NCBI GenBank assembly: GCA_036504215.1
Contig: DASXVO010000039.1
Span: 62,001 to 126,000 of the forward strand
Reading direction: 5' to 3'
DNA length: 64,000 bases
Origin: Vicinamibacterales bacterium
GTDB lineage: Bacteria > Acidobacteriota > Vicinamibacteria > Vicinamibacterales > Fen-181
Shown here: positions 576 to 38,024 of the stretch, piece after piece
How positions within the stretch are numbered: the first letter of the stretch is position 1
Layout of the letters: each line of letters starts with the position of its first letter
Notes under the pieces: model-generated
What the model saw: the letters and a program-made list of their open reading frames with translations, nothing else
What the model was told of the DNA's origin: nothing
Database searches by the model: none
Made by a program: the position numbers and the translations under genes

Positions 576-1787
<1,212 letters not shown>

Positions 1788-1811
1788 TCAGGAGCCAGGA
1801 GTCAGGAGTCC
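1788..1811 (+). repeat. TCAGGAG heptamer repeat supplying a ribosome-binding site
   Basis: The whole 24-base gap between the DHS-like gene and the decarboxylase consists of TCAGGAG/CCAGGAG units. The last AGGAG (1804-1808) stands 3 bases and the preceding one (1797-1801) 10 bases before the ATG, so the repeat doubles as the Shine-Dalgarno sequence. Confidence 0.75.
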
Positions 1812-2954: not shown

Positions 2955-3073
2955 CGGGCCGCGAACCTGCGCGGTCCCAACCCTCGAGACCGGTGGTGAC
3001 GCCCTCGGCGGCGTGATGATGCACCACGCGGCACTTGACAGCTGGTGCGGTCACACCTCAGATTACGTGCTAC

Positions 3074-6225: not shown

Positions 6226-6254
6226 ATTCACATCCCTTCGAAGGGCAGGTAGCG

Positions 6255-7457
6255 ATGAACCCCGTGAGCAGCAAGAAGACGCCGTTCACCTTCGACAGTA
6301 TCGAGCCGGAATCCGGCCTGAAGTCGGCGCTCGGGAAGAGCCGTGCCGACATCATCGCCGAGATCAGCGCCTCGGGCCTCCGCGGCCGGGGCGGCGCCGG
6401 TTTCCCGACCGGGACCAAGTGGAACCTGGCGGCGGCGGCCAAGGTCAAGGCGGGCGGCAACAAATACGTCGTGTGCAACGCGGACGAGGGCGAGCCGGGT
6501 ACGTTCAAGGATCGGGTGATCCTCCTCGAGCACGCCGACCTCGTGTTCGAGGGCATGACGATCGGCGCGCTGGCCGTCGGCGCGAAGCTCGGCATCCTCT
6601 ACCTCCGCGGCGAGTACGTCTACATGCGGCCGCATCTCGACGCGGTGCTCCAGCGTCGGCGCCATCAGAAGCTCCTCGGCACGGCGATTGCGGGCCGCGA
6701 GGGTTTCGACTTCGATATCCAGATTCACATGGGCGCCGGCGCCTACGTGTGCGGCGAGGAGACGGCGCTCATCGAGTCGCTCGAGGGATGTCGCGGCGAG
6801 CCCCGCAACCGGCCGCCGTTCCCGGTGGACACCGGGTTTGACGGCCAGCCGACGATCGTCAACAACGTCGAGACGCTTGCCTGGGCGGCGTGCATCCTCA
6901 GCCGCAGCGCCCACTGGTTCAAGTCGATCGGCACCGACAAGTCGGCGGGGTACAAGCTGTTCAGCGTGTCGGGCGACTGCCGCGAGCCGGGCGTCTACGA
7001 ATTCCCGCTCGGGATCAGCGTGGCGGAACTCCTCCAGAAGGTGGGAGGCGAGGGCGCCAAGGCGGTCCAGGTCGGCGGTGCGTCGGGCCACTGCATCCCG
7101 GCCTCCGAGTTCTCGCGGCGCATCGCGTTCGAGGACATCTCGACCGGCGGCTCGATCATCGTGTTCGGGCCCGGACGCGACATGCTGGAGGTGGCGAAGA
7201 ACTTCATGGAGTTCTTCGTCGAGGAATCGTGCGGCCAGTGCACACCGTGCCGCGTCGGCAACGCGAAACTCCTCGAGGGCGTCGGGTTGCTGGAGCGCGG
7301 CGAGTGCTCGATGCAGTACGTCCAGGAGCTGCTGGGGCTGAGCGAAACGATGCAGCTGGCGTCGAAATGCGGCCTCGGGCAGTCGAGCCCGAACGCCTTC
7401 GTGTCGATCGTGAAGCATTTCAAGGACGAGATCATGGGCCGCACGCTGGTCCACTGA
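6255..7457 (+). CDS. hydB: HydB/NuoF-like flavoprotein of hydrogenase 1, short form
   Basis: About 400 residues: the FMN/NADH core with SGLRGRGGAGFPTGTKW and NADEGEPGTFKDR, VCGEETALIESLEG, and one [4Fe-4S] site in EESCGQCTPCRVG plus CGLGQSSPN. It oxidises or reduces NAD(H) and passes electrons to the Fe-S chain. Unlike its paralogue at 31064-33076 it lacks both the N-terminal thioredoxin-like [2Fe-2S] domain and the C-terminal two-[4Fe-4S] ferredoxin domain. The start is the ATG at 6255 after an AAGGGCAGGT element; the longer reading frame upstream overlaps hydC and is not used. Confidence 0.92.
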   Translation: MNPVSSKKTPFTFDSIEPESGLKSALGKSRADIIAEISASGLRGRGGAGFPTGTKWNLAAAAKVKAGGNKYVVCNADEGEPGTFKDRVILLEHADLVFEGMTIGALAVGAKLGILYLRGEYVYMRPHLDAVLQRRRHQKLLGTAIAGREGFDFDIQIHMGAGAYVCGEETALIESLEGCRGEPRNRPPFPVDTGFDGQPTIVNNVETLAWAACILSRSAHWFKSIGTDKSAGYKLFSVSGDCREPGVYEFPLGISVAELLQKVGGEGAKAVQVGGASGHCIPASEFSRRIAFEDISTGGSIIVFGPGRDMLEVAKNFMEFFVEESCGQCTPCRVGNAKLLEGVGLLERGECSMQYVQELLGLSETMQLASKCGLGQSSPNAFVSIVKHFKDEIMGRTLVH

Positions 7458-7472
7458 GCCGGAGAACGAACC

Positions 7473-9407
7473 ATGAGCGCTGACAAGAACCAGTGTTTCG
7501 ACACGTCGCGGGCGCCTGTGAGCCAGCGGGGCAAGCAGGTGACGACGAGCGGCGATTCGACCGGCTACATCGGTGGACTGGTCTCGATCACCATCGACGG
7601 CAGGGATCACAAGGTGCCGCTCGGCACCACGGTGCTCGAAGCCGCCAAGCAGCTCGGCATCCGCATTCCGACGCTCTGCCATCATCCCGATCTGTGCGTC
7701 GCCGGCGTCTGCCGCGTCTGTGTCGTCGAAGTGGAGAACCAGCGGACGCTCCAGGCGGCGTGCGCGTACCCGGTGACCGCGCCGCTCAAGGTGAAGACGC
7801 ACACCCCGAAGGTGCGGCAGGCCCGGCGTCACATCATCGACCTGCTGCTGTCCCAGCACTACGGCGAGTGCTACAGCTGCAAGCGAAACAACAACTGCGA
7901 GCTGCAGTCGCTGTCGAAGGAATACGGCGTCGACTTCTACCGATTCGGACACCCGACCGAGTCGCGGTTCCCGATCGACCGATCGAGTTACTCGGTCATC
8001 CGTGACATGGACAAGTGCGTCCTGTGCCGCCGCTGTGTCCGCACCTGCATCGACGTGCAGGAGGTCGGCGTGCTCGAGACGGTCGGCCGCAGCGACCAGA
8101 CAAGGGTCGCCACCTACCTGGACAAGCCGCTCGGCGAGGTGGTGTGCATCAACTGCGGGCAGTGCATCAACCGCTGCCCGACCGGCGCGCTGCACGCCAA
8201 CGACACGTCCGACGAGGTCTGGCGCGCGATCGACGACCCGACCAAGCACGTCGTCATCCAGACGGCGCCGAGCCCGCGGGCCGGCATCGGCGAGTGCTTC
8301 GGCCTCGAGCCGGGTATTCCGATGACCTACCAGTTGAACACCGCGCTGAAGCTGTGCGGCTTCGACAAGGTGTTCGACACGAACTTCACCGCCGACCTGA
8401 CGATCATCGAAGAGGGCACCGAGCTGCTGCTCCGCCTGCACAAGGCCCTCGTGAAGAAGGAAGCGGTCGCGTTCCCGCAGTTCTCGAGCTGCTCACCGGG
8501 CTGGGTGAAGTACCTCGAGCACTTCTATCCGGAGTACATCCCGAACCTCTCGACGGCGAAGAGTCCGCAGCAGATGTTCGGCGCCGTCATCAAGACGTAC
8601 TACGCCAAGCTCAACAACCTCGACCCGAAGGACATCGTGACCGTCGCGTTGATGCCCTGCTCGGCCAAGAAGTTCGAGTGCAATCGGCCGGAGATGGACT
8701 CGAGCGGCTTCAAGGACGTGGACTACGGCCTCACGACGCGCGAGATGGCGCAGATGATCAAGGAAGCCGGGATCCATCTGCCCGACATGTCGAAGGGCGA
8801 GTTCGACGATCCGTTTGGCACGGCGACCGGGTCCGGCGTGATCTTCGGCGCCACGGGGGGCGTCATGGAGGCGGCGCTGCGGACGGTGATCGAGCTGGTG
8901 ACGGGCAAGAAGGTCGAAAGCCTGTTCGACCACGCAGACATCATTCCGCTGCGGGGCTTCGACGGCGTGAAATACGTCGAGTTGCCGATTCCGGAGGTCA
9001 GCCCCGACGTTATCCCGCTCCTCAAGCACCTCATCCCCAACTGGGACTTCCTGAAGGGGGCCACGCTGAAGGTAGCGGTGGCGCACGGCACGGCGAACGC
9101 AAAAAGGGTGATGGAGAACATCAAGGCCGGCGGCCAGTTCTCGCAGTGTCATTTCATCGAGTTCATGGGCTGCCCGGGCGGCTGCATCGGCGGCGGGGGC
9201 CAGCCGATCCCGACTTCGCCCGAGATTCGCAAGGCGCGGGCGCGGGCGATCTACGAAGAAGACACGGCATGCGAGGTCCGCAAGTCGCACGAGAACCCGG
9301 CCGTGCTCAAGATCTACGCGGAGTTCCTGACCGAGGGGCCGTGCGGCCACCTGTCGCACGACCTCCTGCACACGCACTACACGCCGCGGGGGAAATTCAT
9401 CGGGTAG
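7473..9407 (+). CDS. hydA: [FeFe]-hydrogenase catalytic subunit HydA1 (NuoG-like M3 type)
   Basis: A 644-residue M3-type catalytic subunit. Iron-sulfur ligands in order: [2Fe-2S] C69, C80, C83, C97; His-Cys [4Fe-4S] H129, C133, C136, C142; two ferredoxin clusters C182-C192 and C225-C235; then the H-cluster domain with SSCSPGW (338-344), LMPCSAKKFE (C396) and EFMGCPGGCIGGGGQP (C567, C571). It makes or consumes H2 with electrons from the HydB/HydC subunits. The first H-cluster motif reads SCSP where the textbook form is TSCCP. Sixteen bases separate it from hydB1; a GC-rich hairpin follows the gene. Confidence 0.95.
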   Translation: MSADKNQCFDTSRAPVSQRGKQVTTSGDSTGYIGGLVSITIDGRDHKVPLGTTVLEAAKQLGIRIPTLCHHPDLCVAGVCRVCVVEVENQRTLQAACAYPVTAPLKVKTHTPKVRQARRHIIDLLLSQHYGECYSCKRNNNCELQSLSKEYGVDFYRFGHPTESRFPIDRSSYSVIRDMDKCVLCRRCVRTCIDVQEVGVLETVGRSDQTRVATYLDKPLGEVVCINCGQCINRCPTGALHANDTSDEVWRAIDDPTKHVVIQTAPSPRAGIGECFGLEPGIPMTYQLNTALKLCGFDKVFDTNFTADLTIIEEGTELLLRLHKALVKKEAVAFPQFSSCSPGWVKYLEHFYPEYIPNLSTAKSPQQMFGAVIKTYYAKLNNLDPKDIVTVALMPCSAKKFECNRPEMDSSGFKDVDYGLTTREMAQMIKEAGIHLPDMSKGEFDDPFGTATGSGVIFGATGGVMEAALRTVIELVTGKKVESLFDHADIIPLRGFDGVKYVELPIPEVSPDVIPLLKHLIPNWDFLKGATLKVAVAHGTANAKRVMENIKAGGQFSQCHFIEFMGCPGGCIGGGGQPIPTSPEIRKARARAIYEEDTACEVRKSHENPAVLKIYAEFLTEGPCGHLSHDLLHTHYTPRGKFIG

Positions 9408-23088: not shown

Positions 23089-24318
23089 ATGCAGCCAACT
23101 CCCCGTTCGCTTCGGCTCCACATCGGGATCTTCGGTCGGCGCAACGTCGGCAAGTCGTCGCTGTTGAACGCGATCACGCGTCAGGAGGTGTCCATCGTAT
23201 CCGAGGTCGCGGGCACGACCACCGATCCTGTCGAGAAACCGATGGAACTGCTGCCGCTCGGTCCGGTGCAGTTCGTGGATACCGCCGGCGTGGACGACGA
23301 GGGGGCCCTCGGAGCGCTCCGCATCGAACGGACGAAGGCCGTGCTGGACCGTGTGGACCTGGGGGTCATCGTCACGGAGGGAGGGGCCTGGGGCCCGTTC
23401 GAGGAGACGCTGCTCGGCGAACTCGAGGCGCGCCGCGTGCCGGTCCAGGTGGTGTTCAACAAGTCGGACCTGAAGCGTCCCGACGCGCCAGAACGTGAGC
23501 GGCTCGAGTCCGTTCACGTGCCGTTCGTCGTCATCTCCGCGCTGGACGGATCCGGTGCGATGACCCTGCGCGAAGCGCTCCTCGCGCTCGCGCCGGGCGA
23601 TTTCTTCGACAACCGTCGTTTGGTGGCCGATCTCGTGCCGCCCGGCGAAGTTGCCGTGCTCGTTGTCCCGATCGACAAGGAAGCGCCGAAGGGGCGATTG
23701 ATCCTGCCGCAGGTCATGACGATTCGCGATCTGCTCGACAGCGAGTCGATGGCGCTCGTGACGCAGGAGCGGGAGCTGCGGCGCGCGCTCGGCCGCCTGA
23801 CGCGGCCGCCGGCGCTCGTCGTGACCGACTCGCAGGTCTTCCTGAAGGTCGCCGCCGACGTGCCGCCGGACGTCCCGATGACGTCGTTTTCGATCCTGAT
23901 GGCACGCTTCCAGGGCGACCTCACCGAGCAGGTGCGCGGGACGCGCGGCATCGAGCGGTTGCAAGGTGGCGACCGCGTGCTCGTTGCCGAGTCGTGCAGC
24001 CATCATCCGGTGGGCGAGGACATCGGCCGTGTGAAGATTCCGCGCTGGCTGACGCAGTACGTCGGTGCGCGCCTGGAGTTCGAACACGTCCAGGGTCGCG
24101 ACTTCCCCCGAGACCTGTCGCCGTACCGGCTTGTCGTGCACTGCGGCAACTGCGTGGGCAACCGGCGCGAGATGTTGTCGCGCATCCACCGGTGTCGAGA
24201 GGCCGGCGTCCCCATCACCAACTACGGCCTGACGATTGCCTACTCGCTTGGGATTCTCGACCGCGCGCTGCAGCCCTTTCCTGCAGCGCTGGAGGCCTCG
24301 CGTGCCGCTCGCGCTTGA
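23089..24318 (+). CDS. hydF: [FeFe]-hydrogenase H-cluster maturation GTPase HydF
   Basis: 409 residues. GTPase motifs GRRNVGKSSL (P loop), GTTTDPV, DTAGVDDEG and NKSD lie in the first ~170 residues. A dimerisation domain and a C-terminal cluster domain with SCSHHP (C-x-H) and, about 45 residues on, HCGNCVGNR (C-x2-C) hold the [4Fe-4S] cluster on which the di-iron subcluster is assembled and delivered to HydA. The last 17 bases overlap the GTG start of hydE. Confidence 0.95.
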   Translation: MQPTPRSLRLHIGIFGRRNVGKSSLLNAITRQEVSIVSEVAGTTTDPVEKPMELLPLGPVQFVDTAGVDDEGALGALRIERTKAVLDRVDLGVIVTEGGAWGPFEETLLGELEARRVPVQVVFNKSDLKRPDAPERERLESVHVPFVVISALDGSGAMTLREALLALAPGDFFDNRRLVADLVPPGEVAVLVVPIDKEAPKGRLILPQVMTIRDLLDSESMALVTQERELRRALGRLTRPPALVVTDSQVFLKVAADVPPDVPMTSFSILMARFQGDLTEQVRGTRGIERLQGGDRVLVAESCSHHPVGEDIGRVKIPRWLTQYVGARLEFEHVQGRDFPRDLSPYRLVVHCGNCVGNRREMLSRIHRCREAGVPITNYGLTIAYSLGILDRALQPFPAALEASRAARA

Positions 24319-25381
24319 TCCTCTCGATCACGACACCCTCGTCGGCTGGCTCCGCGAACCGGATCCGGTCGCTCTCGAACGGCTGTGGCAACGTGCGGAC
24401 GTCGTCCGTGCTGAACACGTGGGCGACGCCGTTCACTTGCGCGGCCTGATCGAAGTGAGCAATCACTGCGTCCGCTACTGCCTGTACTGCGGGATCCGCG
24501 CATGTTCTCCCGGGATCACCCGGTACCGGATGACCGCGGACGAGATCCTGGCGTGTGCCCGCGAGGCCAGGAGGCTCGGCTACGGAACCGTGGTGTTGCA
24601 GTCGGGCGAGGACCCCGAGCTGACACGCGAGTTCGTGGAGGACGTCGTGCGGGCGATCAAGGTGGAGACCGGGCTCGCCGTGACGCTGAGCGTTGGGGAG
24701 CGGAGTGACGGGGACCTGATGGCCTGGAAACAGGCCGGCGCCGATCGATTCCTGCTCCGCTTCGAGACCTCGGACCCGGACTTGTACCGGCGCATCCATC
24801 CCTCGCTGCCGGGCACGCTGTCGGACCGCGTCGCCCAGTTGCTGCGGATGCGCGAGATGGGCTACGAGATCGGCAGCGGGGTGATGGTGGGTGTCCCCGG
24901 TCAGACCTACGATATCCTCGCCCGCGACATCGAGTTGTTCCGCGATCTCGACATCGACATGATTGGCATCGGACCCTTCCTTCCCAGCCCGAGGACGCCG
25001 CTCGGTGGCGAGGCGGCAGCGCGGCTGTGCGCGCCGGACGGCGACCAGGTGGCCAACAGCGAGTCGATGACGCTCAAGGCAGTCGCGTTGACGCGATTGG
25101 TCTGCCCGGAGGCCAACCTGCCCAGCACGACGGCGCTGGCGACGATCGACCCGGCCACGGGCCGCGAGCTGGGGCTGGTGCGCGGTGCGAACATCGTGAT
25201 GCCCAACGTCACGCCGCCGGCGTATCGCGTGCTGTACGAAATCTACCCGGGGAAGGCCTGCATCCACGAGACCGCGCAGGCGTGCCGCGGCTGTCTCGAA
25301 GGCCGCATCCGATCGATCGGCCGTGTCGTCGGCTCGGGCCCCGGCGGACGTCGCCGGAGCGCGGCCGTTCTCCCGAGCTGA
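24302..25381 (+). CDS. hydE: Radical SAM H-cluster maturase HydE
   Basis: 359 residues starting with GTG at 24302 inside the end of hydF. The radical-SAM motif is NHCVRYCLYCGI (C-x3-C-x2-C); RYRMTADEIL, VVLQSGEDPEL and GVPGQTYDILARDI match HydE barrels, and the family's C-terminal region is complete. It processes the HydG product on the way to the di-iron subcluster. Translational coupling to hydF is evident. Confidence 0.95.
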   Translation: MPLALDPLDHDTLVGWLREPDPVALERLWQRADVVRAEHVGDAVHLRGLIEVSNHCVRYCLYCGIRACSPGITRYRMTADEILACAREARRLGYGTVVLQSGEDPELTREFVEDVVRAIKVETGLAVTLSVGERSDGDLMAWKQAGADRFLLRFETSDPDLYRRIHPSLPGTLSDRVAQLLRMREMGYEIGSGVMVGVPGQTYDILARDIELFRDLDIDMIGIGPFLPSPRTPLGGEAAARLCAPDGDQVANSESMTLKAVALTRLVCPEANLPSTTALATIDPATGRELGLVRGANIVMPNVTPPAYRVLYEIYPGKACIHETAQACRGCLEGRIRSIGRVVGSGPGGRRRSAAVLPS

Positions 25382-25536: not shown

Positions 25537-26703
25537 TCAGGACACGCTGAGCGGCGCCGGTGGGTTCGCCGCCTGGGCGCTCTGGGCGTGGAGCACGACG
25601 AGGAAGGTGCTGCCGACGTTCGGGGCGCTCTCCACCGTGACGTCGCCGCCGTACAACTGAGCCAGCTTCTTCACGATCGACAGCCCGAGTCCCGTGCCGG
25701 GAATGGCCCGCGTCCGATCGTTCTTGATCCGGACGAACTCCTGGAACAGCCGTCCCGCTTCGTCAGGTGAGAGCCCGATGCCGGTGTCGGCGACCTGGAA
25801 CCGAACTCCCGTGTCCGTCGGTTCGATACACACCTCGACACGGCCGCCGTCGCGGTTGTACTTCACCGCGTTGCTCACGAGGTTGTTGAAGAGGATCTCG
25901 AGCTCGCCGCGGTCCGCGACGATCCACACGTGCTCGGGAGCATGAAGTGCCAGGGACACCCGCCGCTCGGCAGCTGCCGTGGCCGCCGTGTCGAGCGCCG
26001 CCTGGGCCACCTCGCGGACGTCCACCTGGCTGAACTCCCGCCGCTTCTGTCCCGACTCGATGCGCGTCAAGTCGAGGAGTTCGCTGATGAGCCGCCGCAT
26101 CCCGCCCGCGCGCGCCAGGGCGCGGTCCACCACCTGCGCCTGGACCACCGGATCGGTTCCCGCGGTGCCGTCCTTCAGAATCTGGAGGAAGCCCTCGATC
26201 GCCGCGAGCGGCGCCTTCAATTCGTGGCCGAGCACCGAAATGAACTGGAAGCGCACCTGGCGCTTCTCCAGGGCCAACTGCCGCGCCTGCCGCTGCACCA
26301 TCAGGTGCTTGACGACGCGCCGGACCGCGACGCGCAGCTCGTCGGGAGTGAAGGGCTTCGGAAGGAAGTCGTGGGCGCCGCGCTTGGTCGCATCGATGGC
26401 CGTCTCGAGCGTGGCGTAGGCGGTGATCATCACCGTGAGCGTCTGGATGTTCCGCTCGCTGATTTGCCTGAGGACGTCGAGGCCGGAGATGCCCGGCAGC
26501 TTGAGGTCGAGCAGCACGATGTCGGGCACCGCCGCGGCCATCCGTTCGAGGGCCTCCTCGCCGGTCTCCGCGGTCTGCACGTCGAAGTTGACCGCGGCCT
26601 CGGTCTGGTCGCCGACCCTCACCGTGAAGGTGCTGAGCACCCGCGCGATCGCCATCCGCATCCCGGTCTCGTCATCGACCACCAGCACTCGGAGGGTTTC
26701 CAT
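25537..26703 (-). CDS. REC-histidine kinase hybrid (response regulator fused to HisKA-HATPase)
   Basis: 388 residues. An N-terminal receiver domain (VLVVDDETG, phospho-Asp in IVLLDLKLPGISG, K in FLPKPF) is followed by HisKA with the His in VLGHELKAPLAAIEG and an ATPase domain (NLVSNAVKYNR, DTGIGLSPDE, GTGLGLSIVKKLAQLYGG). There is no membrane segment, so it is cytosolic. Its receiver probably accepts phosphate from another kinase. It is the last gene of the rex-hyd2 operon. The ATG at 26703 with GAGGTGTGAG before it is preferred over an in-frame TTG at 26715. Confidence 0.9.
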   Translation of the reverse strand: METLRVLVVDDETGMRMAIARVLSTFTVRVGDQTEAAVNFDVQTAETGEEALERMAAAVPDIVLLDLKLPGISGLDVLRQISERNIQTLTVMITAYATLETAIDATKRGAHDFLPKPFTPDELRVAVRRVVKHLMVQRQARQLALEKRQVRFQFISVLGHELKAPLAAIEGFLQILKDGTAGTDPVVQAQVVDRALARAGGMRRLISELLDLTRIESGQKRREFSQVDVREVAQAALDTAATAAAERRVSLALHAPEHVWIVADRGELEILFNNLVSNAVKYNRDGGRVEVCIEPTDTGVRFQVADTGIGLSPDEAGRLFQEFVRIKNDRTRAIPGTGLGLSIVKKLAQLYGGDVTVESAPNVGSTFLVVLHAQSAQAANPPAPLSVS

Positions 26704-26785
26704 CTCACACCTCAAGACACGCCAACCACCAGCGTTTCTGGTTCCAACGAGGCTTGCCGTCGGTCCGAGGCACGCCTCGCTGGAA

Positions 26786-27190
26786 TTACCTGACCGTCAG
26801 CAGCCGGTCCATCTCGCGCCGCAGTTGCTCGAAGCGGATGGGCTTGGCCAGCACGGCGTCCGCCCCCACCCACGCTCGTTCCGCGGCGGACGCGGGGTTG
26901 AAGCTCAATCCGGTCTCGCTGGTCACGGCCGTGACCATGATGATCGGCAGGCCGGGGAACGCACGCTTCAGATGATGCGACAGGACGAAGCCGTCATCGT
27001 GTCGTTCCATCATGAGATCGAGGATGGCGAGGTCCGGCGTGAAGTGGCGAATCGCCTCCTCGGCCTGCGAACGCGTGGCGGCGGTCGTCACTTCGAAGCC
27101 GGCGTTCTCCAGCTGAATCCGATGCTGGAACAAGAAGTCCTCGTCGTCGTCCACGAGGAGGATGTTGATGGTGGCGCGTGTGCTTGACAT
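26786..27190 (-). CDS. Single-domain response regulator of the hydrogenase 2 operon
   Basis: 134-residue stand-alone receiver: acidic pocket in LLVDDDED, phospho-acceptor D58 in LAILDLMMERHDDG, Thr in IIMVTAV, Lys in AVLAKPIRF. As in the REC protein at 5322, the segment between Thr and Lys is about ten residues longer than usual. The shared LDxMMExxDDG motif suggests the two are paralogues specialised for hydrogenase operons. It sits between the H-cluster kinase and the REC-kinase, an arrangement fitting a phosphorelay. Confidence 0.9.
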   Translation of the reverse strand: MSSTRATINILLVDDDEDFLFQHRIQLENAGFEVTTAATRSQAEEAIRHFTPDLAILDLMMERHDDGFVLSHHLKRAFPGLPIIMVTAVTSETGLSFNPASAAERAWVGADAVLAKPIRFEQLRREMDRLLTVR

Positions 27191-27247: not shown

Positions 27248-29257
27248 TCAGGCCGCCGTGGCGCCGCTCTCCCGCCGTCGCGGCAGCACGACCGTGAACG
27301 TCGTTCCCGTCGGACCTCTGGCGGCGTCGGCGTTCGAGTGGACTTTGATGTCGCCGCGATGCATCTTCACGATGCCGTAGCTGACCGCGAGGCCGAGACC
27401 GGTGCCCTTGCCGACCTTCTTCGTCGTGAAGAACGGCTCGAAGAGTTTCGGGAAGTGTTCGGGCGGGATCCCGACGCCGGTGTCCGATACGATGATGCGG
27501 ACGTGGTCCGCATCATCCTCGGTCCGAATCCGCAACACGCCGCCGTCCGGCATCGCCGCGAACGCGTTGCTGACGAGATTCACGAGGACCTGCGTGATTT
27601 GGTCCGGATCCACTTCGATGGACGGGTCGCTCACCTGGTGCTCGACCTCCACCTCGACGCCGAGCGGGTGCGCGACGCCGCGGAGGCCGCGTTGCACGAG
27701 TTCAGCCAGGTCGATCCGGTCGTGCTCCACCTTGTTCTGCCGCGCGAAGTCGAGGAGGCCGGCCACGATCTTCTTGCAGCGATCGGCCTGCTCGACCACC
27801 ATCGCGAGGTCTTCGCGGTACTCGGGCTTGTCGCCGATCTGCTCCATTAGGAAATGGGCATACATGATGACGACGCCGAGCGGGTTGTTGACCTCGTGCG
27901 CGATCCCGGCCGCGAGCTGGCCCATGCTCGCGAGCTTTTCGGAGCGCACCAACGCGACCTGGGCGTTGGCGAGTTCCTCGTTGGATCGACCCAGTTCGTA
28001 CACGGTTTCGCGCAGGTGCTCGATGCTGTGAGGCAGACACATCTCGGGCTCGGCCAGACCGCGGTAGATGGCGCTCGCCAGCTCACGGCAGCTCGAGTAC
28101 CCGCACGCCCCGCAGTTCAGCTCGTTGGTCGGATCCGGCTTGCCCAGGTCGGTCAGCAGCCGCTGCAACTCTTCCGGCGACGGTACCGGCAGGCGCAGAT
28201 CCTTGGCGGCATAGGCGCGGGAGAGATCGACGTGCGCGTAGCTGGCGATGCGTCTCTCCCAGGCGGCCTGATCGCTTTCCGCGATCCGCCGGCGGACATA
28301 CTGGCTGACGCGGGCCCGGCGGCCGAAGTGCGGCAGATCGGAACTCATCCCGGGGCCCATCGTGCAGCCGCGGCAGAAGAGGACTTCGAGCAACCGTGTG
28401 TCGAGCAGGCCCGATTCGGCTTCCTTGATGGCCTGCGCGAACTCGGCGGGGCCTTCGGCGACCATCACGTGACCCGTGACGAGATCCTCCTGGATGCCGG
28501 CCACCTGCAGCATGCCGCCGCTGAGCGGGAACAGGCCGCCGCCACGGCTCTGGGGCGGATCGAAGTCGAAGGCGGGAACGACCTTCGGGTCGAGATCGCG
28601 CGACGCGACCATCTGACGCAGTTCGGCGAAGGTGAGCGCCTCGTCCACCTCGCCCTGCAGCTCGGTTGACTCGCGCTTCTTGGCGATGCACGGGCCGACG
28701 AAGACGATCCGGAGGTCACCGCCGTGAGCCTGCCGGAGCAGCCGGGCCGTCGCAATCATCGGCGAGACGATCGGGGCGAGGGCGGCCGTGAGGTCGGGAT
28801 AGTAGCGCTCGACGTACCCGACGACCGATGGGCAGGTCGTGGCAATCCAGAGCTTGTCGGTGTCGCGGGAGACCAGCCGCCGGTATTCGAGCGCCACGAG
28901 TTCGGCGCCGAACGCGACTTCATGTACCGACGCGAACCCCAGGGCCCGCAGCGTGCCGACGACCGCCGGGTAGTCGAGGTCGATGAACTCGGCCGGGAAG
29001 CTGGGCGCGATGATTGCTGCGACGGGCTCGGGGCCGGCCAGCAGCGCTTCGACGGCCTCCACCGCGGACACGACGCTCTTGGCGGACTGCGTGCACACCT
29101 TCACGCACACGCCGCAGCCGATGCAGCGTTCCGGCAGCACCTGCGCCTTCAGGTCGGCGATGCGGATGGCCTTCGCCGGGCACTCACGCACGCACTGGTA
29201 GCAGACGCGGCACCGTTCGCCGATCGTGGACACCAGCGGGACCAGGGTTGCGTTCAC
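27248..29257 (-). CDS. HydS-like sensor: H-cluster domain fused to a histidine kinase
   Basis: 669 residues from the GTG at 29257. Order: two [4Fe-4S] sites (C16, C19, C22, C26; C45, C48, C51, C55); an [FeFe]-hydrogenase large-domain fold with modified motifs ATTCPSV (C142), [10 protein letters not shown] (C190) and [11 protein letters not shown] (C295, C298); a small Fe-S domain [10 protein letters not shown] (C382, C385, C390, with C407); HisKA with H454 in [12 protein letters not shown]; and an ATPase domain ([33 protein letters not shown]). The proton-shuttle cysteine is replaced by Thr and the last motif is C-x2-C rather than C-x3-C. This resembles sensory, not catalytic, [FeFe] proteins. 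A GTG at 29296, three bases after hydA2, is an alternative start. Confidence 0.88.
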
Positions 29258-29299
29258 GTCAGGGCTCGCTCTCAGGGCTCTCGGCTCGTGGCCCACCGT

Positions 29300-31024
29300 C
29301 TACATGACTACGTTCCGCGCCTCGTATTCCGTGTGCAACAGTTCGTGGCTGCGGTGCGACAACGGCTTCTCCAGGAATTCCGCGTAGAGCCGGTGGATGG
29401 CCGGGTTCTGATGCGACGCGCGCAGCGGGGCGTCGCGGTCGATCGCGTAGAGGGCCTGCATCCGCGCGCGCACCGCATCGGGCGAGGCCGCGCGCGGCTG
29501 GCCGCCGCCGTTGATGCACCCGCCGGGGCACGCCATCACCTCGATGAGGTGGAGGTCCTTGCGCCCGGCGCGAATCTGCTCGACCAGCGCCCGGGCCTGC
29601 CCGAGCCCGGACACCGCCGCCACACCGATCTCGCGACCGGCGATCGTCGCCCGGTACTCCTTGATGCCGTCGAGACCGCGAAGTGGCTGGATCCTGGCGG
29701 GCGCGGCAGGCTCGCCGGTGAGGAGGAAGTGCGCGGTCCGCAGCGATGCCTCGGCCACACCGCCGCTGGCGCCGAAGATCTTCCCGGCCGCGGTGCGCTC
29801 GCCGAACGGCGTGTCCGGTGCCTCGGGCGGGAGCGCGTTCAGGTCGAGGCCGTGCATCCGGATGAGCTCCGCGAGTTCCCGCGTCGTCAGCACCGCATCG
29901 ATGTCAGGGCGGCCGTTGCGCCCCATTTCCGGCCGTCCCGCCTCGAACTTCTTCGCGGTGCACGGCATGACGGCCACGCTGAAGATGCGGGAGGGGTCGA
30001 TCTTCTCACGATCGGCGAAGAAGCTCTTGATGACCGCACCGAGCATCTGCTGCGGGCTCTTGCAGGTCGAGAGGTGCGGGATCATGTCGGGGTAGAACTG
30101 CTCGACGAACTTAATCCAGCCGGGCGAGCAGCTCGTCATCATCGGGATCGGCGCGTCCGCCGTGGTCAGCCGCTGCACGAGCTCGGACGCCTCTTCCATG
30201 ACCGTGAGATCGGCGGAGAACGCCGTGTCGAACACCCGGCGGAAGCCGAGTCGGCGGAGCGCGGCGGCCAGCACACCGTCCACATCGGAGCCCGGCTTCG
30301 CACCGAACTCCTCAGCCAGGCTGACCGACACCGCCGGCGCGTGCTGGACGACGACGAATCGGTCGGGGTCGCTGAGCGCGGCCATCACTTCTTCGAGCGC
30401 GCTGTGCTCGTTGAGCGCGCCGGTCGGGCACACGGCCACGCACTGGCCGCAGTTGACGCAACTGCTGATGTTCGGCCCCTCGTCGAACGCCGTTCCCACG
30501 CGGGCCCGGCTGCCACGGCCGATGAAGTCGAGCGCGCCCACCGTTTGGATCTCCTCGCACACGCGCACGCACTTGCCGCAGAGGATGCACTTGGCCGGCT
30601 CGCGGACGATCGCCGGGCTCGCCACGTCGAGGCGGGCCGGGGTGCGGCCGCCGAAGTATCGGCGACGCCGGACACCCAGTTGCTCGGCCAGCGCCTGCAG
30701 CTCGCAGTCGCCGCTGCGCGAACAGTAGAGGCAATCGTCCGGGTGGTTGGCGAGCAGGAGTTCGACCAGCGTCTTGCGGGCATCGACGGCGCGCGACGAG
30801 TGCGTGCGGACCTTCATGCCGGACGCGACTGGGTACGCGCAGCTCGGCACGAGGCCGCGCTGCCCTTCGACGTCCACGACGCACATGCGGCAGGCGCCGC
30901 TCGGCGGCAGGCCGTCGTAGTGGCAGAGCGTTGGGATGGTGATCCCGGCGCGCCGCACGGCCGTGAGCAGCGTCTCGCCGTCCTGCGCATCCACGGTCCG
31001 TCCGTTGACCTCGATCTTGATCAC
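29300..31024 (-). CDS. hydA: [FeFe]-hydrogenase catalytic subunit HydA2
   Basis: 574 residues, M3-type: [2Fe-2S] (C34, C45, C48, C62), His-Cys cluster in HPDDCLYCSRSGDC, ferredoxin sites C146-C156 and C189-C199, and H-cluster motifs MTSCSPGW (C299), VMPCTAKKFE (C354) and EVMACPGGCINGGGQP. It is shorter than HydA1 because it lacks that protein's ~40-residue N-terminal extension. As in HydA1, the first motif has SCSP. The GTG at 31024 is chosen because AGGAGAGG precedes it; the frame is open to 31051. It is third in the rex-hydC-hydB-hydA order. Confidence 0.95.
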   Translation of the reverse strand: MIKIEVNGRTVDAQDGETLLTAVRRAGITIPTLCHYDGLPPSGACRMCVVDVEGQRGLVPSCAYPVASGMKVRTHSSRAVDARKTLVELLLANHPDDCLYCSRSGDCELQALAEQLGVRRRRYFGGRTPARLDVASPAIVREPAKCILCGKCVRVCEEIQTVGALDFIGRGSRARVGTAFDEGPNISSCVNCGQCVAVCPTGALNEHSALEEVMAALSDPDRFVVVQHAPAVSVSLAEEFGAKPGSDVDGVLAAALRRLGFRRVFDTAFSADLTVMEEASELVQRLTTADAPIPMMTSCSPGWIKFVEQFYPDMIPHLSTCKSPQQMLGAVIKSFFADREKIDPSRIFSVAVMPCTAKKFEAGRPEMGRNGRPDIDAVLTTRELAELIRMHGLDLNALPPEAPDTPFGERTAAGKIFGASGGVAEASLRTAHFLLTGEPAAPARIQPLRGLDGIKEYRATIAGREIGVAAVSGLGQARALVEQIRAGRKDLHLIEVMACPGGCINGGGQPRAASPDAVRARMQALYAIDRDAPLRASHQNPAIHRLYAEFLEKPLSHRSHELLHTEYEARNVVM

Positions 31025-31063
31025 AACCTCTCCTCGCGAAACCACAGCCACCGAGTCATGTCG

Positions 31064-33076
31064 TCACGCCGCCGTCACCGCGTCGAAGTGGCACACATCC
31101 ACGCAGGTACCGCAGGCGATGCAGCGTTCCGGGATCACGTGGTGCGGGCTCTTCAGCGTGCCGACGATGGCCTCGGACGGGCAGTTCTTGACGCACACCG
31201 AGCAGCCCGTGCACTTGTCCTCGTCGATCGTGTACTCCAGCAACTCGCCGCACGCCTTGGCGGGGCAGCGCCGGTCGTAGACGTGCGCCTCGTACTCATC
31301 GCGGAACCACCGGAGCGTGCTCAAGACCGGGTTCGGCGCCGACTGTCCCAGCCCGCAGAGACTGGTGTCCTGAATCACCTGCGCGAGGTGCTCGAGGTTC
31401 ATCACGCTCCGGAACCGCTCGAGCGCCTCGAACTCCTTTTCGTTGCGGCGGCTGCGCGACAGACTCTCCAGGATTTCCAGCATCCGCCGCGTGCCCTCGC
31501 GGCACGGGATGCACTTCCCGCAGCTCTCACGCTGGATGAAGTCCATGAAGAACTTCGCGATGTCGACCATGCACGTCGATTCGTCCATCACGACGAGTCC
31601 GCCCGAGCCCATCATCGCGCCGACACGCTTGAGCGACTCGTAGTCGATGTCGATGTCGAGGTGCTGCGACGGGATACAGCCGCCAGAGGGGCCGCCAATC
31701 TGCACAGCTTTGTACGCCTTCCCGTTCGGAATGCCGCCGCCGATGTCGAAGACGATCTGCCGGAGCGGCGTGCCCATCGCCACCTCGACCAGCCCGGTGC
31801 GCGCCACCCTGCCGGAGAGGGCGAAGACCTTGGTGCCCTTGCTCGTCTCCGTCCCGATGCTCGTGAACCACTCTTCGCCGTTGAGGACGATCGCCGGCAC
31901 GTTCGCGAGCGTTTCGACGTTGTTGATCACCGTCGGTTTGCCGAACAGGCCGCGGACCGCGGGGAACGGCGGCCGCGGTCGCGGCATGCCGCGACGGCCC
32001 TCGATGCTGTGGAGGAGCGCCGTTTCCTCGCCGCAGACGAATGCGCCGGCACCCTGCTTCAGGGCGATCTCCAGGCTGAAGCCGGAGTCGAGGATGTTGC
32101 GGCCCAGGAGACCGAAGGTCTTCGCCTGTGCCATGGCGTGCTGCAGCCGCCTGATGGCGAGCGGGTATTCGGCGCGGATGTAGATGTAGGCCTTGCTCGC
32201 GCCTATCCCGTAGGCGGCGAGCGCGAGGCCTTCGAGCACGCGATGCGGATCGCCCTCGATGACCGCGCGATCCATGAACGCGCCCGGGTCGCCCTCGTCC
32301 GCGTTGCAGACCATGTATTTCTGATCCGCGGAGTGCTTGAGCGCGATCTTCCACTTGGTGCCCGTCTTGAAGCCGCCGCCTCCGCGTCCGCGCAGGCCGG
32401 CGCGCTCGATGAAGTCGCACAACTCGGCCGGCGTCCGCTCGCGCAGGGCCCTGGCCAGGCCCGCATAGCCGCCGCGTGCGACGTATTCCTCGAGGCTCGT
32501 CGGGTCGAGGATGCCGCAGTTGGCGAGCACCCAGCGCGTCTGGCGCGCGAAGAACGGATGCTCGTCGAGATACGCGACGTCGGGCCACCCTTCGACGTTC
32601 GCGCCCCGGAACTGCCCCAGCGGCGTGACGGGGAACGGCGTGCCCCCGAAGACGCTGTCCAGCAGGGAGTCCACGTGTTTCTCGGTGACGCGCGGGAAGC
32701 TGAGGCGTGTGCGACCGACGAGCTGCACGTCGAGGAGCGGTTCCTCGACACAGAGCCCGATGCAGCCGACCTCGACGATCTCCGCCCGCACGTGGGCGTG
32801 AACCTCGAGGTAGCGGCGGACCGCCGCGACGGTCTTCGCCGCGCCGGCGCCGAGGCCGCACGTGCCCGTGCCGATATAGATGACCGGTCGCGTGATCGTC
32901 TCGCGCCGCAGCCTCGCGTTGCGTGCCTGCCGAGTGTCGCGGCAGGCACGCGCCTCGTGGCAGAAGGGACCGGAAGTGAGGCATTCGACCAGCTGAGGGC
33001 AAGGGCGACCCGGGCCGTGCCAGCACTCCCCGCAGCAGCGAACGAAATCGACGTCCATGCGATCCTCGGCGGTCAT
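31064..33076 (-). CDS. hydB: HydB/NuoF-like flavoprotein of hydrogenase 2, long form with Cys-rich N-terminus
   Basis: 670 residues. An unusual N-terminal segment has seven cysteines in the first 45 residues (C14, C15, C18, C26, C32, C39, C45). Then comes a thioredoxin-like [2Fe-2S] domain (GTGTCGLGAG, VGCIGLCVEE; three of the usual four cysteines seen), the FMN/NADH core (GLRGRGGGGFKTGTKW, NADEGDPGAFMDR), the [4Fe-4S] site ESCGKCIPCREG, and a C-terminal two-cluster ferredoxin domain (CTGCSVCVKNCP, CIACGTCVDVCH). This is the domain order of HydB from bifurcating HydABC enzymes. It overlaps hydC2 by four bases. Confidence 0.93.
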   Translation of the reverse strand: MTAEDRMDVDFVRCCGECWHGPGRPCPQLVECLTSGPFCHEARACRDTRQARNARLRRETITRPVIYIGTGTCGLGAGAAKTVAAVRRYLEVHAHVRAEIVEVGCIGLCVEEPLLDVQLVGRTRLSFPRVTEKHVDSLLDSVFGGTPFPVTPLGQFRGANVEGWPDVAYLDEHPFFARQTRWVLANCGILDPTSLEEYVARGGYAGLARALRERTPAELCDFIERAGLRGRGGGGFKTGTKWKIALKHSADQKYMVCNADEGDPGAFMDRAVIEGDPHRVLEGLALAAYGIGASKAYIYIRAEYPLAIRRLQHAMAQAKTFGLLGRNILDSGFSLEIALKQGAGAFVCGEETALLHSIEGRRGMPRPRPPFPAVRGLFGKPTVINNVETLANVPAIVLNGEEWFTSIGTETSKGTKVFALSGRVARTGLVEVAMGTPLRQIVFDIGGGIPNGKAYKAVQIGGPSGGCIPSQHLDIDIDYESLKRVGAMMGSGGLVVMDESTCMVDIAKFFMDFIQRESCGKCIPCREGTRRMLEILESLSRSRRNEKEFEALERFRSVMNLEHLAQVIQDTSLCGLGQSAPNPVLSTLRWFRDEYEAHVYDRRCPAKACGELLEYTIDEDKCTGCSVCVKNCPSEAIVGTLKSPHHVIPERCIACGTCVDVCHFDAVTAA

Positions 33077-33546
33077 TTCTTGGTTGCCTCTCGGCGCAGG
33101 GTCTTGATCACCTTGATGGCCCGCTCAGACGTGGCGTCCGCGTGGAACTCGCCGTTGACCGCCATGAGCGGCGCGAGGCCGCAGGCACCCAGGCACGCCA
33201 CGACTTCCAGGCTGAAGAGGCCGTCGCGGGTCGTCTGACCCGGCTTGACCTGCAGCGTGCGCTCAACCGCCGACAGCGTCTGGCTCGAGCCCTTCACGTG
33301 GCAGGCGGTGCCACGGCAGAGCTGCACGTGGTAGCGGCCGAGCGGCTGGAACCGGAACTGGTTGTAGAAGGTGGCGACGCCGTAGACCTTGCTCGCCGGC
33401 AGCTTCAGGTACTGGCCGACGCGGACCACCGCCTCTCGCGAGAGGTAACCGTGCGCCGCCTGGACGTCCTGCAGCAGCGGGATCAACGCCTCACGACGTC
33501 CCGCCGGGTACTTGCTGACAATCGGATCGAGGTCTGGTGCGATCAT
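33073..33546 (-). CDS. hydC: HydC/NuoE-like [2Fe-2S] subunit of hydrogenase 2
   Basis: 157 residues: LIPLLQDVQAAHGYLSREA and KVYGVATFYNQFRF form the helical part; CRGTACHVKGS and ACLGACGLAP hold the [2Fe-2S] cluster. It shares operon position and fold with the copy at 5713. Its start overlaps the stop of rex by ATGA and its stop overlaps the start of hydB2 by ATGA, so rex, hydC2 and hydB2 are translationally coupled. Confidence 0.93.
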   Translation of the reverse strand: MIAPDLDPIVSKYPAGRREALIPLLQDVQAAHGYLSREAVVRVGQYLKLPASKVYGVATFYNQFRFQPLGRYHVQLCRGTACHVKGSSQTLSAVERTLQVKPGQTTRDGLFSLEVVACLGACGLAPLMAVNGEFHADATSERAIKVIKTLRREATKK

Positions 33547-34220
33547 CGGACTGAATCCTGTTCACCGAGCCGCAGGTGCGCGTAGTAGGCCACCTTGTCG
33601 AGGGCCATCATCAAGTCCACGTCCTCGACATACATGCCGGTCGGCAGATGAAGACGAATCGGCGCGAAGTTGAGAATCCCCTTCACCCCGGCGAGGATCA
33701 GGAGATCGGCCACCCCCTGGGCTTCTCCGGCGGGCACGGCGATGACGCCGACGTGGATTCCCTCGCGAGCGATGACTTCCGCCATCTGTTCGACCGGGTG
33801 GCAGCGGCATCCGTGCAGGATTCGCCCGGTCTTCTCGGGCGCCCGGTCGAAGGCAGCGGCGAATCGCACCGGTTGACGGTTGGCGTAGTAGGCGAGGATG
33901 GCGCGCCCGAGATTGCCGACGCCGACGAGCGCGACCGCAGTCTCGACCGATCGGGCGAGGACGGTGTTGATGGCCTCGACCAGTTCCTGGATGGCGTAGC
34001 CCTTCCGCGGGCTTCCGCTGAAGCCGATGGTCATCAGGTCGCGGCGAACCTGGGCGGGCGTGCTGACGGCCAGTCGGGCGAGCTGATGGGAGTAGACCTG
34101 GCGTGTGCCGGAGGCCAACTGCTCGTTCAGGAGGCGACGATACAGGCTCAGCCGGCCGATCGTATTGACCGGAATCGCGGGGCTGGTTTGTGGGGCTGTC
34201 GAGCGTGGCTGACGAGTCAT
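33543..34220 (-). CDS. rex: Redox-sensing transcriptional repressor Rex
   Basis: 225 residues. A winged-helix domain (TIGRLSLYRRLLNEQL, RLAVSTPAQVRRDLMTIG, SGSPRKGYAI) is followed by a Rossmann domain with VALVGVGNLGRAIL and a C-terminal domain-swap helix. Rex binds its operators when NADH is low and leaves DNA when NADH rises. It is the first gene of the hydrogenase 2 operon and should autoregulate it: two boxes lie directly upstream. The presence of similar boxes at 5143-5182 extends its probable regulon to hydrogenase 1. Confidence 0.95.
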   Translation of the reverse strand: MTRQPRSTAPQTSPAIPVNTIGRLSLYRRLLNEQLASGTRQVYSHQLARLAVSTPAQVRRDLMTIGFSGSPRKGYAIQELVEAINTVLARSVETAVALVGVGNLGRAILAYYANRQPVRFAAAFDRAPEKTGRILHGCRCHPVEQMAEVIAREGIHVGVIAVPAGEAQGVADLLILAGVKGILNFAPIRLHLPTGMYVEDVDLMMALDKVAYYAHLRLGEQDSVR

Positions 34221-35221: not shown

Positions 35222-36619
35222 TCAGCAGTACACGTCACGCTCACCGGCCTTCACGCGCTCCATGAGCTGGATGGAACGCTGCCGCGGCCAGTCGTCCATG
35301 GTGCCGAGCGCGTCCGCGACGCAGCGCTCGCCGACGGCCCGCGTCTCGGGCGACGCATAGTCGATCAAGTACTCCATGAATGTCGAGAGCCCGTTCGGGT
35401 CGCAGTGCTGCTTGATGTCGCCGGGCTTTGCCAGATCCATGAAGTCGGCGCCGGTGCGCCCGAGCCGGTAGCACCCCGTACAGAACGACGGGATGTAGCC
35501 GAGCGATGCCACGTCGCGCACCACCTCGTCGAGGTCGCGGTGGTCGCCCAGGCAGAACTGGCTGGCATCGGCTTCCTGTGCGTTGTCGGCGTAGCCGCCG
35601 GGGTTCGTGCGGCTGCCCGCCGAGATTTGCGACACGCCGAGCGCGAACGTCTCCCGGCGGATGTGCGCCGATTCGCGCGTCGACATGATGATGCCCGTGT
35701 ACGGCACGGCCAGGCGGAAGATGGCGACGATCTTGCGGAAGTCCACGTCGGACACGGCGTGCGGAGGGTGCGCGGCGACGTCCGAGCCGGTCGCCGGCTC
35801 GAGGCGCGGCACGCTGATCGTGTGTGGGCCGACGCCGAACTTCGCCTCGAGGTGACGGATGTGCTGCATCAGCGCCAGCAGCTCGAATCGCCAGTCGAAC
35901 AGGCCGAACAGCACGCCAATCCCCACGTCGTTGATCCCGGCCTCCATCGCGCGGTCCATGGCCGTCACGCGCCAGTCGTAGTCACGCTTCTTCCCGCCCA
36001 GGTGGACGGCCGCGTACGTGTCGTGATGGTACGTCTCCTGGAACAGTTGGTAGGTGCCGAGCTTCCGCTCCTTGAGGGCCTTGAACTCATCGAGCGACAG
36101 GGGGGCCACGTTGGCGTTGACGCGGCGGATTTCGCCCTTGTCGTGCTTGACGCTGTAGATCGTGTCGATGCACTTCAGGACGTACGAAAAGCCCTCGTGA
36201 GGATACGATTCGCCGGCGACGAGCAGGACGCGCTTGTGCCCCTGGTCGATCAGGATCCGCACTTCCTGCGCGATCTCCTCCTGCGACAGGGCGCGCCGGA
36301 CCACCGCGCGGTTGCGGGCGCGGAAGGCGCAATAGGTGCACTCGTTCGCACACATGTTGGACACATACAGCGGCGCGAACAGCACAAGCCGCCGGCCGTA
36401 GATCGTGTCCTTCACGAAGGCGGCCGCCGCGAACAGTTCACCGAGGAGTTCGGGGTCGCTGATGCCCATCAGCGTCGCCATCTCGCCGGCGTCCAGGCCG
36501 TTCAGCTCGCGGCCCTTCGCCAACACGTCGCGGACAGCGTAGGCGTCGCGGAGGTCCGCACGTCTCAACGTCTCGAAGATTGCGGTTTCGTCTATATGAA
36601 GAGTGTCCTGTGCTTCCAT
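35222..36619 (-). CDS. hydG: Radical SAM H-cluster maturase HydG (tyrosine lyase)
   Basis: 465 residues. The radical-SAM motif is NMCANECTYCAF (C-x3-C-x2-C); GESYPHEGFSYVL and QETYHHDTYAAVH are typical of the barrel; the C-terminal auxiliary cluster site is CTGCYRLGRTG with a third cysteine in KQHCDPNG (C-x2-C-x22-C). It cleaves tyrosine to make the CO and CN- ligands of the di-iron site. The ATG at 36619 is used; a longer frame upstream runs back into the kinase gene. It is encoded apart from hydE and hydF but within 10 kb. Confidence 0.96.
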   Translation of the reverse strand: MEAQDTLHIDETAIFETLRRADLRDAYAVRDVLAKGRELNGLDAGEMATLMGISDPELLGELFAAAAFVKDTIYGRRLVLFAPLYVSNMCANECTYCAFRARNRAVVRRALSQEEIAQEVRILIDQGHKRVLLVAGESYPHEGFSYVLKCIDTIYSVKHDKGEIRRVNANVAPLSLDEFKALKERKLGTYQLFQETYHHDTYAAVHLGGKKRDYDWRVTAMDRAMEAGINDVGIGVLFGLFDWRFELLALMQHIRHLEAKFGVGPHTISVPRLEPATGSDVAAHPPHAVSDVDFRKIVAIFRLAVPYTGIIMSTRESAHIRRETFALGVSQISAGSRTNPGGYADNAQEADASQFCLGDHRDLDEVVRDVASLGYIPSFCTGCYRLGRTGADFMDLAKPGDIKQHCDPNGLSTFMEYLIDYASPETRAVGERCVADALGTMDDWPRQRSIQLMERVKAGERDVYC

Positions 36620-36668
36620 GGTGTGGCCGACCTGTGATCTGGCGGGGGCTTCGCGGAACCTGCCGTCA

Positions 36669-38024
36669 TTATACGCCCGCTGCTCCGGGCGACGCCGTCG
36701 TCCGGGCGACGCCCGCCGCCGTCGCAGTTGGGATCGGCTGAGGGATCTCGAACCTGAATTCGGCCCATTCGCCCTCACGCGAATCGGCGGTGAGCCGCCC
36801 GCCGTGTGTCACGACGATGCGCCACGAGGTGTAGAGTCCGACGCCCGTTCCCTTTCTCTTCCGCAGTTCCGGTGTGTCGAGTCGCGAGAACCGCCGGAAC
36901 AGGCGCGGCCGCTGGCTGGCCGGGAATCCCGGGCCCTCGTTCCACACCCGCAAACCGAATCCGGATGGACCGCGCTCGACGGTCAGGCGCACCGTGCCCT
37001 GCTCGCGCCCGTATTTCACGGCATTGCTGATCAGGTTCACGACGACGATCTTGATCAGGTCGGGATCGCAGCTGACGACCACCGGTGCCGTCGGAAACAC
37101 GCGCTCGATCGACATGCGCTTCTCGGCGACCTGCGGCGCGACGATGTCGCACGCGGCCTCGACGACGTCTGCGATGAAATCGACGCCGTCCCGCGGGTGG
37201 GCTTTCAGCTCGCCTCCCTCGATGCGGGCCAGATCGAGATACTCGCGGATCAGGTTGAGGAGGTACTCGGCCTTCCGCGTCATCTTCCCGACGACCTCGC
37301 GCTGCGCCTCGGTCATCTCGCCCGCGTAGCCATCCCTCAGGACCGCCGCATCCATTACGATCGACGCCAGGGGGCTCTTCAGTTCGTGGCTGACGAATCC
37401 CAGCATCTCGGCGTACGCCTGCGTCGCCTGGGCGAGTTGCTCGATCCGCCTCGCCTTGTCCACCGCCTGGCTCAGCCTCTCCGCGATGGCCAGGTGGAAG
37501 CGGACGTCCCGCTCGGTGTAGGCACCCGGCCGTCGGGCGCTGAAGAACAGCAGGCCGACGATGCGTGCGTCCACGAGCAGCGGGCACGTCATGCTGGACC
37601 GCACGCCCTCCTTCAGCAGGAGTTTCGTCGACTGGCTGCCCGGCCGCTCGCGCAGGTACGCCTCGAGATCGTCGATGATCCGGGGCGCGCCACTCTTCAG
37701 CACCCGCTCGAGCGAGCTGCCTGCCAGATCCTCGGCGTAGCCCTCCTTCAGAATCACCGGCTCGTAGCTCGCGCGGGTGTGGTGCGCGACGAGCCGCACG
37801 CCGTCTTCCTCGACGAACGACACGCCGATGCGGTCGCACGTCAGCACGGGCTGGACCGACGTGAACAGGAAGTCGAGGAGCGCTTCGAGCGAGTCGGCCG
37901 CCGCGATGCGGCGGTTGATCGTGTCGAGCACCTGCTGCTCGGCGGCGGAGAACGACGCGTTCCCTGCGAGGCCGGCGGACGCGTCGGCGACGAGGCGGAG
38001 TGCGGAAGACGTACCCATGGTCAT
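36669..38024 (-). CDS. Cytosolic GAF-domain histidine kinase
   Basis: 451 residues with no membrane segment. A GAF domain (about 30-200: DRIGVSFVEEDGVRLV, LLVDARIVGLLFFSARRPG), HisKA with the His in GFVSHELKSPLASIV, and an ATPase domain (VVNLISNAVKYGRE, KGTGVGLYTSWRIV). The G1 box reads WNEGPGFP in place of DxGxG, a variant seen in some kinases. It lies 49 bases upstream of hydG on the same strand, so it may be co-transcribed with the maturation genes. The signal is unknown. Confidence 0.88.
   Translation of the reverse strand: MTMGTSSALRLVADASAGLAGNASFSAAEQQVLDTINRRIAAADSLEALLDFLFTSVQPVLTCDRIGVSFVEEDGVRLVAHHTRASYEPVILKEGYAEDLAGSSLERVLKSGAPRIIDDLEAYLRERPGSQSTKLLLKEGVRSSMTCPLLVDARIVGLLFFSARRPGAYTERDVRFHLAIAERLSQAVDKARRIEQLAQATQAYAEMLGFVSHELKSPLASIVMDAAVLRDGYAGEMTEAQREVVGKMTRKAEYLLNLIREYLDLARIEGGELKAHPRDGVDFIADVVEAACDIVAPQVAEKRMSIERVFPTAPVVVSCDPDLIKIVVVNLISNAVKYGREQGTVRLTVERGPSGFGLRVWNEGPGFPASQRPRLFRRFSRLDTPELRKRKGTGVGLYTSWRIVVTHGGRLTADSREGEWAEFRFEIPQPIPTATAAGVARTTASPGAAGV

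Follow-up and report, generated by a model that had tools for sequence, protein, structure and literature searches.

We identified, in a window of 64,000 nucleotides from a Vicinamibacterales bacterium (contig DASXVO010000039.1), a gene whose product joins a sensory [FeFe] hydrogenase-type H-domain directly to a histidine kinase and has C-x2-C spacing in its last H-cluster motif, L3. This spacing was present in 59 of 60 direct-kinase sensors and in none of 75 other sensors (with PAS, chemotaxis, hybrid-kinase or no tails), figures that hold for the sampled phyla because the sampling started from a C-x2-C query and reached few Bacillota. The domains, ligands, operon, lineage and shortened L3 loop can be read from the sequence itself. 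The protein is probably a cytoplasmic H2- or redox-sensing kinase that adjusts the electron-bifurcating hydrogenase encoded next to it. Sensory [FeFe] proteins fused to kinases are known in kind; as far as our searches reach, the new elements are a consistent loop shortening that marks a lineage, a conserved cassette of sensor, receiver and receiver-kinase genes, and a branch that lacks the maturases.

Domain organization and H-domain motifs

Pfam matched the sensor to Fer4 domains, Fe_hyd_lg_C (7.9e-41), FeS (PF04060), HisKA and HATPase_c (Table 1), in agreement with the translation and with the initial annotation, which had placed a hydrogenase-like domain, Fe-S sites and a complete histidine kinase on one chain. 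The reading frame was taken from the furthest GTG at 29296, and the in-frame GTG at 29257 (codon 14) is an equally plausible start. Two N-terminal [4Fe-4S] sites and an exact Cx2Cx4Cx16C match after the H-domain place the protein with sensory groups C and D; Pfam detected no PAS domain, a feature of group C (M2f), in its 682 residues. The HisKA His, lying in an H-box that reads HEVNNP, the N-, G1-, F- and G2-boxes of HATPase_c, recognized by eye, and a receiver partner are those of a two-component histidine kinase, and the kinase domain was closest to AtoS/ZraS. In an AlphaFold model (mean pLDDT 74.4, 11 rows; a second AlphaFold model had a mean pLDDT of 58.9), the sensor half matched the [FeFe] hydrogenases CbA5H, HydA of HydABC and DdH, and the kinase half matched ZraS. 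Residues 421-452 were predicted to form one helix linking the FeS site and the kinase, with low confidence over residues 438-475.

Table 1. Features of the sensor and its neighbouring genes in the window
Feature	Position	Strand	Basis and remarks
HydF H-cluster maturase	23089..24318	+	
HydE H-cluster maturase	24236..25381	+	
Receiver-HisKA-HATPase hybrid, probable second relay step	25537..26715	-	Pfam, locus comparison
Receiver-only response regulator, probable partner	26786..27190	-	134 aa; Pfam, locus comparison
Sensor gene, sensory [FeFe] H-domain joined directly to histidine kinase	27248..29296	-	682 aa
HATPase_c catalytic domain	27275..27610	-	Pfam; Foldseek match to ZraS 9jfj
HisKA dimerisation/phosphoacceptor domain (His467)	27737..27925	-	Pfam
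Signalling-helix linker, FeS site to kinase, without PAS	27926..28036	-	Pfam and predicted helix, low confidence 438-475
C-terminal Cx2Cx4Cx16C FeS site (PF04060), Cys 395/398/403/420	28037..28114	-	Pfam and pattern
L3 motif, Cys308 and Cys311, C-x3-C shortened by one residue	28349..28378	-	Translation, alignment
L2 motif GPCIAKKRE; Gly201 (M353 site), Cys203 ligand, Lys206 (K358 site)	28670..28696	-	Translation, alignment
L1 motif ATTCPSV; Thr154 at proton-shuttle site, Cys155 ligand	28823..28843	-	Translation, alignment
Ferredoxin site B, N-terminal, Cys 58/61/64/68	29093..29125	-	C in 57/57 kinase rows
Ferredoxin site A, N-terminal, Cys 29/32/35/39	29180..29212	-	C in 56/57 kinase rows, 1 gap
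hydA, NADH-dependent [FeFe] hydrogenase large subunit	29300..31051	-	Canonical C-x3-C; NF040763 over cut-off
hydB, NuoF-like subunit	31064..33076	-	
hydC, NuoE-like subunit	33073..33546	-	
Rex-type redox repressor, operon head	33543..34220	-	
HydG H-cluster maturase	35222..36778	-	~1 kb past Rex

Motifs are named L1 to L3, and residues compared across proteins carry CpI numbers, of which 299, 353, 417 and 497 are those of PMC10055695. In its own numbering, the window protein has the L3 motif FC(308)RGC(311)TMGPG and the H-domain ligands C155, C203, C308 and C311, and its Thr154, Gly201 and Leu306 correspond to the shuttle Cys299, Met353 and Met497. The translation thus contained what had been described earlier, namely Thr at the shuttle site, GPC, C-x2-C, GPG and all four cluster cysteines, and alignment found neither a C-x3-C nor a shuttle Cys in this protein. 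It lacks the group A catalytic motifs (TSCxP, MPC, and C-x3-C with GGGQP). Its replaced shuttle Cys and its Gly at M353 (G, S or T in the sensory groups) are those of groups C and D, in which L3 is C-x3-C; because its L3 is C-x2-C, it is a variant of the sensory kind and not a canonical member. The initial annotation had listed the replaced shuttle Cys, GPC and GPG among its altered motifs; by alignment, all three are ordinary in sensory relatives. A subtype defined by GPG and GPC was rejected on the same grounds. Judged from the sequences, the lineage differs distinctively from other sensory relatives in its C-x2-C spacing alone.

Among the 57 kinase rows of the first alignment, the shuttle Cys was missing in all, and P231, Gly at 353, C300, C355, C499 and C503 were invariant. 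The remaining pocket residues were kept in 54 (K358), 53 (S232), 53 (A230) and 52 rows (F417, as F or Y), and all 16 cluster cysteines were conserved, apart from a gap in a single row at the first site. As a separate observation, six of the eight group A HydA rows, including L001, have Cys in the shuttle column and Ser where CpI has its ligand Cys300 (TSCSP). Ser at the Cys300-equivalent site is also described for Hydrogenedentota BfuA in an excerpt of PMC11406978.

Distribution and phylogeny of the C-x2-C spacing

The sample comprised 100 near relatives, 396 Acidobacteriota genomes, 294 genomes from the phylum of a Planctomycetota locus, 64 from that of a Latescibacterota locus and 39 from that of a Riflebacteria/Ozemobacter locus, together with named MAG and plasmid matches. 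We aligned 105 distinct sensor proteins bearing the C-terminal FeS site, counted rows identical over residues 60-300 once, and scored the spacing from alignment columns. Rows without the Cx2Cx4Cx16C pattern were kept out of the sensor counts, including the truncated L059 (VLFCQGC, also C-x2-C); two weak tails were retained, one of 55 aa at a contig end (L046) and one from an apparently frameshifted kinase (L009). Tail classes were assigned by small HMMs from 11 seed tails, nine of them Pfam-checked (ten were checked in all) and the rest taken from an orthologue of the window protein.

In this first set, C-x2-C was found in 56 of 57 direct-kinase sensors and in none of the 48 others (38 PAS, nine chemotaxis and one without a tail). 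Alignment columns showed it in none of eight group A and none of four group B rows. A hold-out of 30 places, which had scored in the searches but stayed outside the first set, gave C-x2-C in all three direct-kinase sensors and in none of 14 PAS, nine chemotaxis, one tail-less and three receiver-bearing hybrid-kinase proteins. Since orthologues at 66-81% identity have the same spacing, it is not a sequencing error. The lone direct-kinase row with C-x3-C, L050 (VLSCKGGC), sits deep within the clade, and its motif is read as a re-insertion; most simply read, the lineage acquired the short spacing a single time and L050 later lost it.

We then examined the phylogeny. With the L3 columns removed, sensory rows stood apart from groups A and B, and PAS rows apart from the kinase and chemotaxis rows; the window sensor grouped with the sensory rows, among which RaHydS (L028) was the only named reference. 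In the first tree, the nine chemotaxis rows formed a long branch placed inside the kinase rows, and an AU test did not reject a single kinase clade (p 0.513). A larger FastTree that included the hold-out recovered the 60 direct-kinase rows as one clade (98) spanning four phyla, and on this basis the spacing marks a lineage. Three hold-out proteins (L205, L206 and L209) join a sensory [FeFe] part to a hybrid kinase that includes a receiver, and L209 also has Hpt. They have C-x3-C and grouped among the chemotaxis-type rows, and the rule that a kinase tail means C-x2-C was rejected by them. The proposal in the initial annotation that C-x2-C may define a distinct subtype is well supported by its distribution, with the correction that the spacing marks the lineage and not kinase output as such, because these receiver-bearing kinases keep C-x3-C.

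The near-invariance of C-x2-C raises the question of whether the shorter loop can support H-cluster assembly, since it might not keep the bridging Cys in the geometry that an H-cluster needs. L3 is LCCNGC in 24 of the 57 kinase rows (e.g., L023), with an extra Cys right before the first ligand. By its position, this Cys could restore a C-x3-C pair through a one-residue shift.

Operon context and proposed signalling

On the minus strand, the genes run in the order Rex, hydC, hydB, hydA, sensor, receiver-only regulator and receiver-HisKA-HATPase hybrid. We compared 41 kinase-clade loci with wider flanks, consisting of 38 of 40 fetched loci (two PAS-type loci were excluded) plus L022, L023 and L026. 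In 32 of the 41, HydA lay upstream in the same orientation as the sensor, and in two more it was divergent; a receiver-only gene was nearby in 36, and a match of the receiver-hybrid type lay downstream in 39. Some loci without the expected neighbours are contig ends. Three of these 39 downstream matches (L162, L163 and L175) are NtrC-type: Pfam assigned receiver, sigma-54 activation and Fis-type HTH domains in L163, and the other two were judged NtrC-like by sequence. In the window, no DNA-binding output gene other than Rex was found beside the sensor, and a sigma-54 promoter scan gave 22 matches (chance expectation 20.4), with no convincing site at the operon. Unlike the kinase clade, two PAS-type sensors (L186 and L187) lie beside hydCBA on a strand that carries neither the receiver nor the receiver-kinase gene. 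Some 20 kb away from the main operon, the window also encodes another large subunit of an NADH-dependent [FeFe] hydrogenase (7473-9407, plus strand; NF040763 over cut-off), with its own NuoF-like partner (6072-7457, plus strand).

In the proposed mechanism, HydE, HydF and HydG would build the H-cluster in the sensor, where the H-domain and the C-terminal [4Fe-4S] site would be wired to the histidine kinase by one signalling helix. H2, or a ferredoxin/NADH redox state equilibrating with H2, would shift the redox state of the H-cluster, and the FeS domain would relay this shift to the helix, which would set kinase versus phosphatase activity. Phosphate would then pass to the receiver-only regulator, the receiver-kinase hybrid or both, whose output may adjust the hydCBA operon or associated metabolism. 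By their sequences, the members of the lineage in four phyla are probable hydrogen or redox sensors. A single polypeptide would suffice to assay H2-dependent phosphorylation, since it includes the partner kinase and its gene lies next to those of the probable receivers. The [NiFe] regulatory hydrogenase system HoxBC-HoxJ-HoxA works alike, from a gas-reading centre through a kinase to a response regulator; its metal centre and fold are unrelated to those of the window sensor, in which sensor and kinase are one chain.

Altered-pocket branch, alternative functions and known systems

Among 58 genomes, HydG was over the cut-off in 45 and HydF in 46; the HydE search covered 18 genomes. Four kinase rows (L051, L052, L056 and L057) form a supported branch (99) with four or five pocket departures each, compared with at most one in any of the other 53 kinase rows. 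They have D for A230, T for S232, I or F at C299, L at F417 and N, K, R and R at K358, and they retain every cluster cysteine and the kinase. Their sensor genes lie away from hydABC; in their genomes (completeness 80, 93, 91 and 86%), neither HydF nor HydG passed the threshold and HydE had no match. The departures affected four of 11 pocket columns versus five of 40 others (Fisher p 0.087), so the enrichment in the pocket is only suggestive, and the four rows share ancestry. HydF and HydG were both absent from nine of the 58 genomes. Assembly gaps or divergence may account for such missing maturases, as five of these nine encode hydABC and sensors with intact pockets. The five are G352 and G491, which lack HydE as well, and the Latescibacterota genomes G457, G759 and G760 (L023, L177 and L178), in which hydABC, the kinase sensor and only a divergent HydE (174-191 bits) were found.

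This branch, with its altered pocket, sensor genes away from hydABC and genomes in which no maturase was found, fits an Fe-S kinase that senses redox state and has no [2Fe] subsite, whose H-domain cysteines would hold an ordinary [4Fe-4S] cluster and whose kinase would read ferredoxin/NADH and not H2; C-x2-C is itself an ordinary [4Fe-4S] spacing. For the window protein we regard this reading as rather unlikely, as most of the other kinase rows, with their near-intact pockets, lie beside hydABC in maturase-bearing genomes, and the pocket signal comes from related rows. A bolder account, less likely than not, is that members of the lineage bind an H-cluster with a loop shorter by one residue than that of any other sampled [FeFe] protein, wired directly to a kinase, and that this one branch gave up the [2Fe] subsite and the maturases while keeping the Fe-S ligands and kinase, turning an H2 sensor into a pure redox sensor. 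If so, the branch would be a natural experiment in which redox signalling is uncoupled from H2 sensing, and a ready [2Fe]-free comparison for testing H2 against redox sensing. Many Acidobacteriota genomes also encode a short protein (about 430-530 aa) matching the sensor model, two of which (L190 and L191) resemble group D, with T at the M353 site and no PAS or kinase. HydF over threshold was absent from 23 of 24 tested Acidobacteriota genomes with such a protein, which may therefore work without an H-cluster.

TmHydS and TamHydS resemble the window sensor in their two N-terminal [4Fe-4S] sites, H-domain, Cx2Cx4Cx16C site, missing shuttle Cys and small residue at M353; TmHydS ends in PAS, TamHydS has no PAS, and ligating cysteines are reported as conserved in both. 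Our aligned PAS-type relatives are C-x3-C, unlike the window sensor. Both proteins can hold an H-cluster without the shuttle Cys and have low activity (PMC10055695, PMC8163306). TmHydS, with A/G/S/Y at C299/M353/M497/F417, takes up the [2Fe] site and is active (PMC10055695), which favours the proposed mechanism; H2 did not reduce the C-terminal cluster of TamHydS (PMC13104023), which speaks against it. Such low activity, and the position of the sensor next to hydA, would suit a protein that acts as a slow hydrogenase catalyst, or as an electron-transfer subunit of HydABC, and whose kinase is vestigial. This reading is made improbable by the absence of the shuttle Cys in all kinase rows and by the conservation, across phyla, of both the kinase boxes and the genes for partner receivers. 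A degenerate hydA paralogue without a cluster would explain a Fe_hyd_lg_C domain score far below that of hydA (140.7 versus 306.9 bits) and is very improbable given the conserved cluster cysteines and the single conserved clade. Architecture, operon and the published sensory hydrogenases support the earlier suggestion that the protein is probably a sensor rather than a catalyst.

HydDB lists kinase-linked C1, chemotactic C2 and phosphatase-linked C3 groups, all putative (PMC5037454). Group C1 shares with the window sensor the proposed, putative sensing of H2 through a histidine kinase, which in two genome papers is a separate gene beside C1 (PMC8542988, PMC6163223) and here is fused. A kinase-fused [FeFe] architecture is already published: a 2024 paper on Hydrogenedentota describes C1 proteins with HATPase_C and one C3 type with a kinase domain, on the H-domain chain and often beside group A3 hydrogenases (PMC11406978). 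Its excerpts state that canonical motifs were hardly found in C1 and that it is unclear whether these C1 proteins can sense H2, and they do not mention the L3 spacing, receiver partners or clade seen in the window lineage. No C-x2-C subtype was described in the titles and abstract openings of the open papers searched. RaHydS of Ruminococcus albus 7 has a homologous sensor half (32% identity) and differs in its C-x3-C (SACNGSC), PAS tail, separate SpoIIE phosphatase gene and clade. The genome of the window also encodes a 912-aa sensory [FeFe] protein with a chemotaxis MCP domain and C-x3-C (L004; contig C24 of G000, 850-3585).
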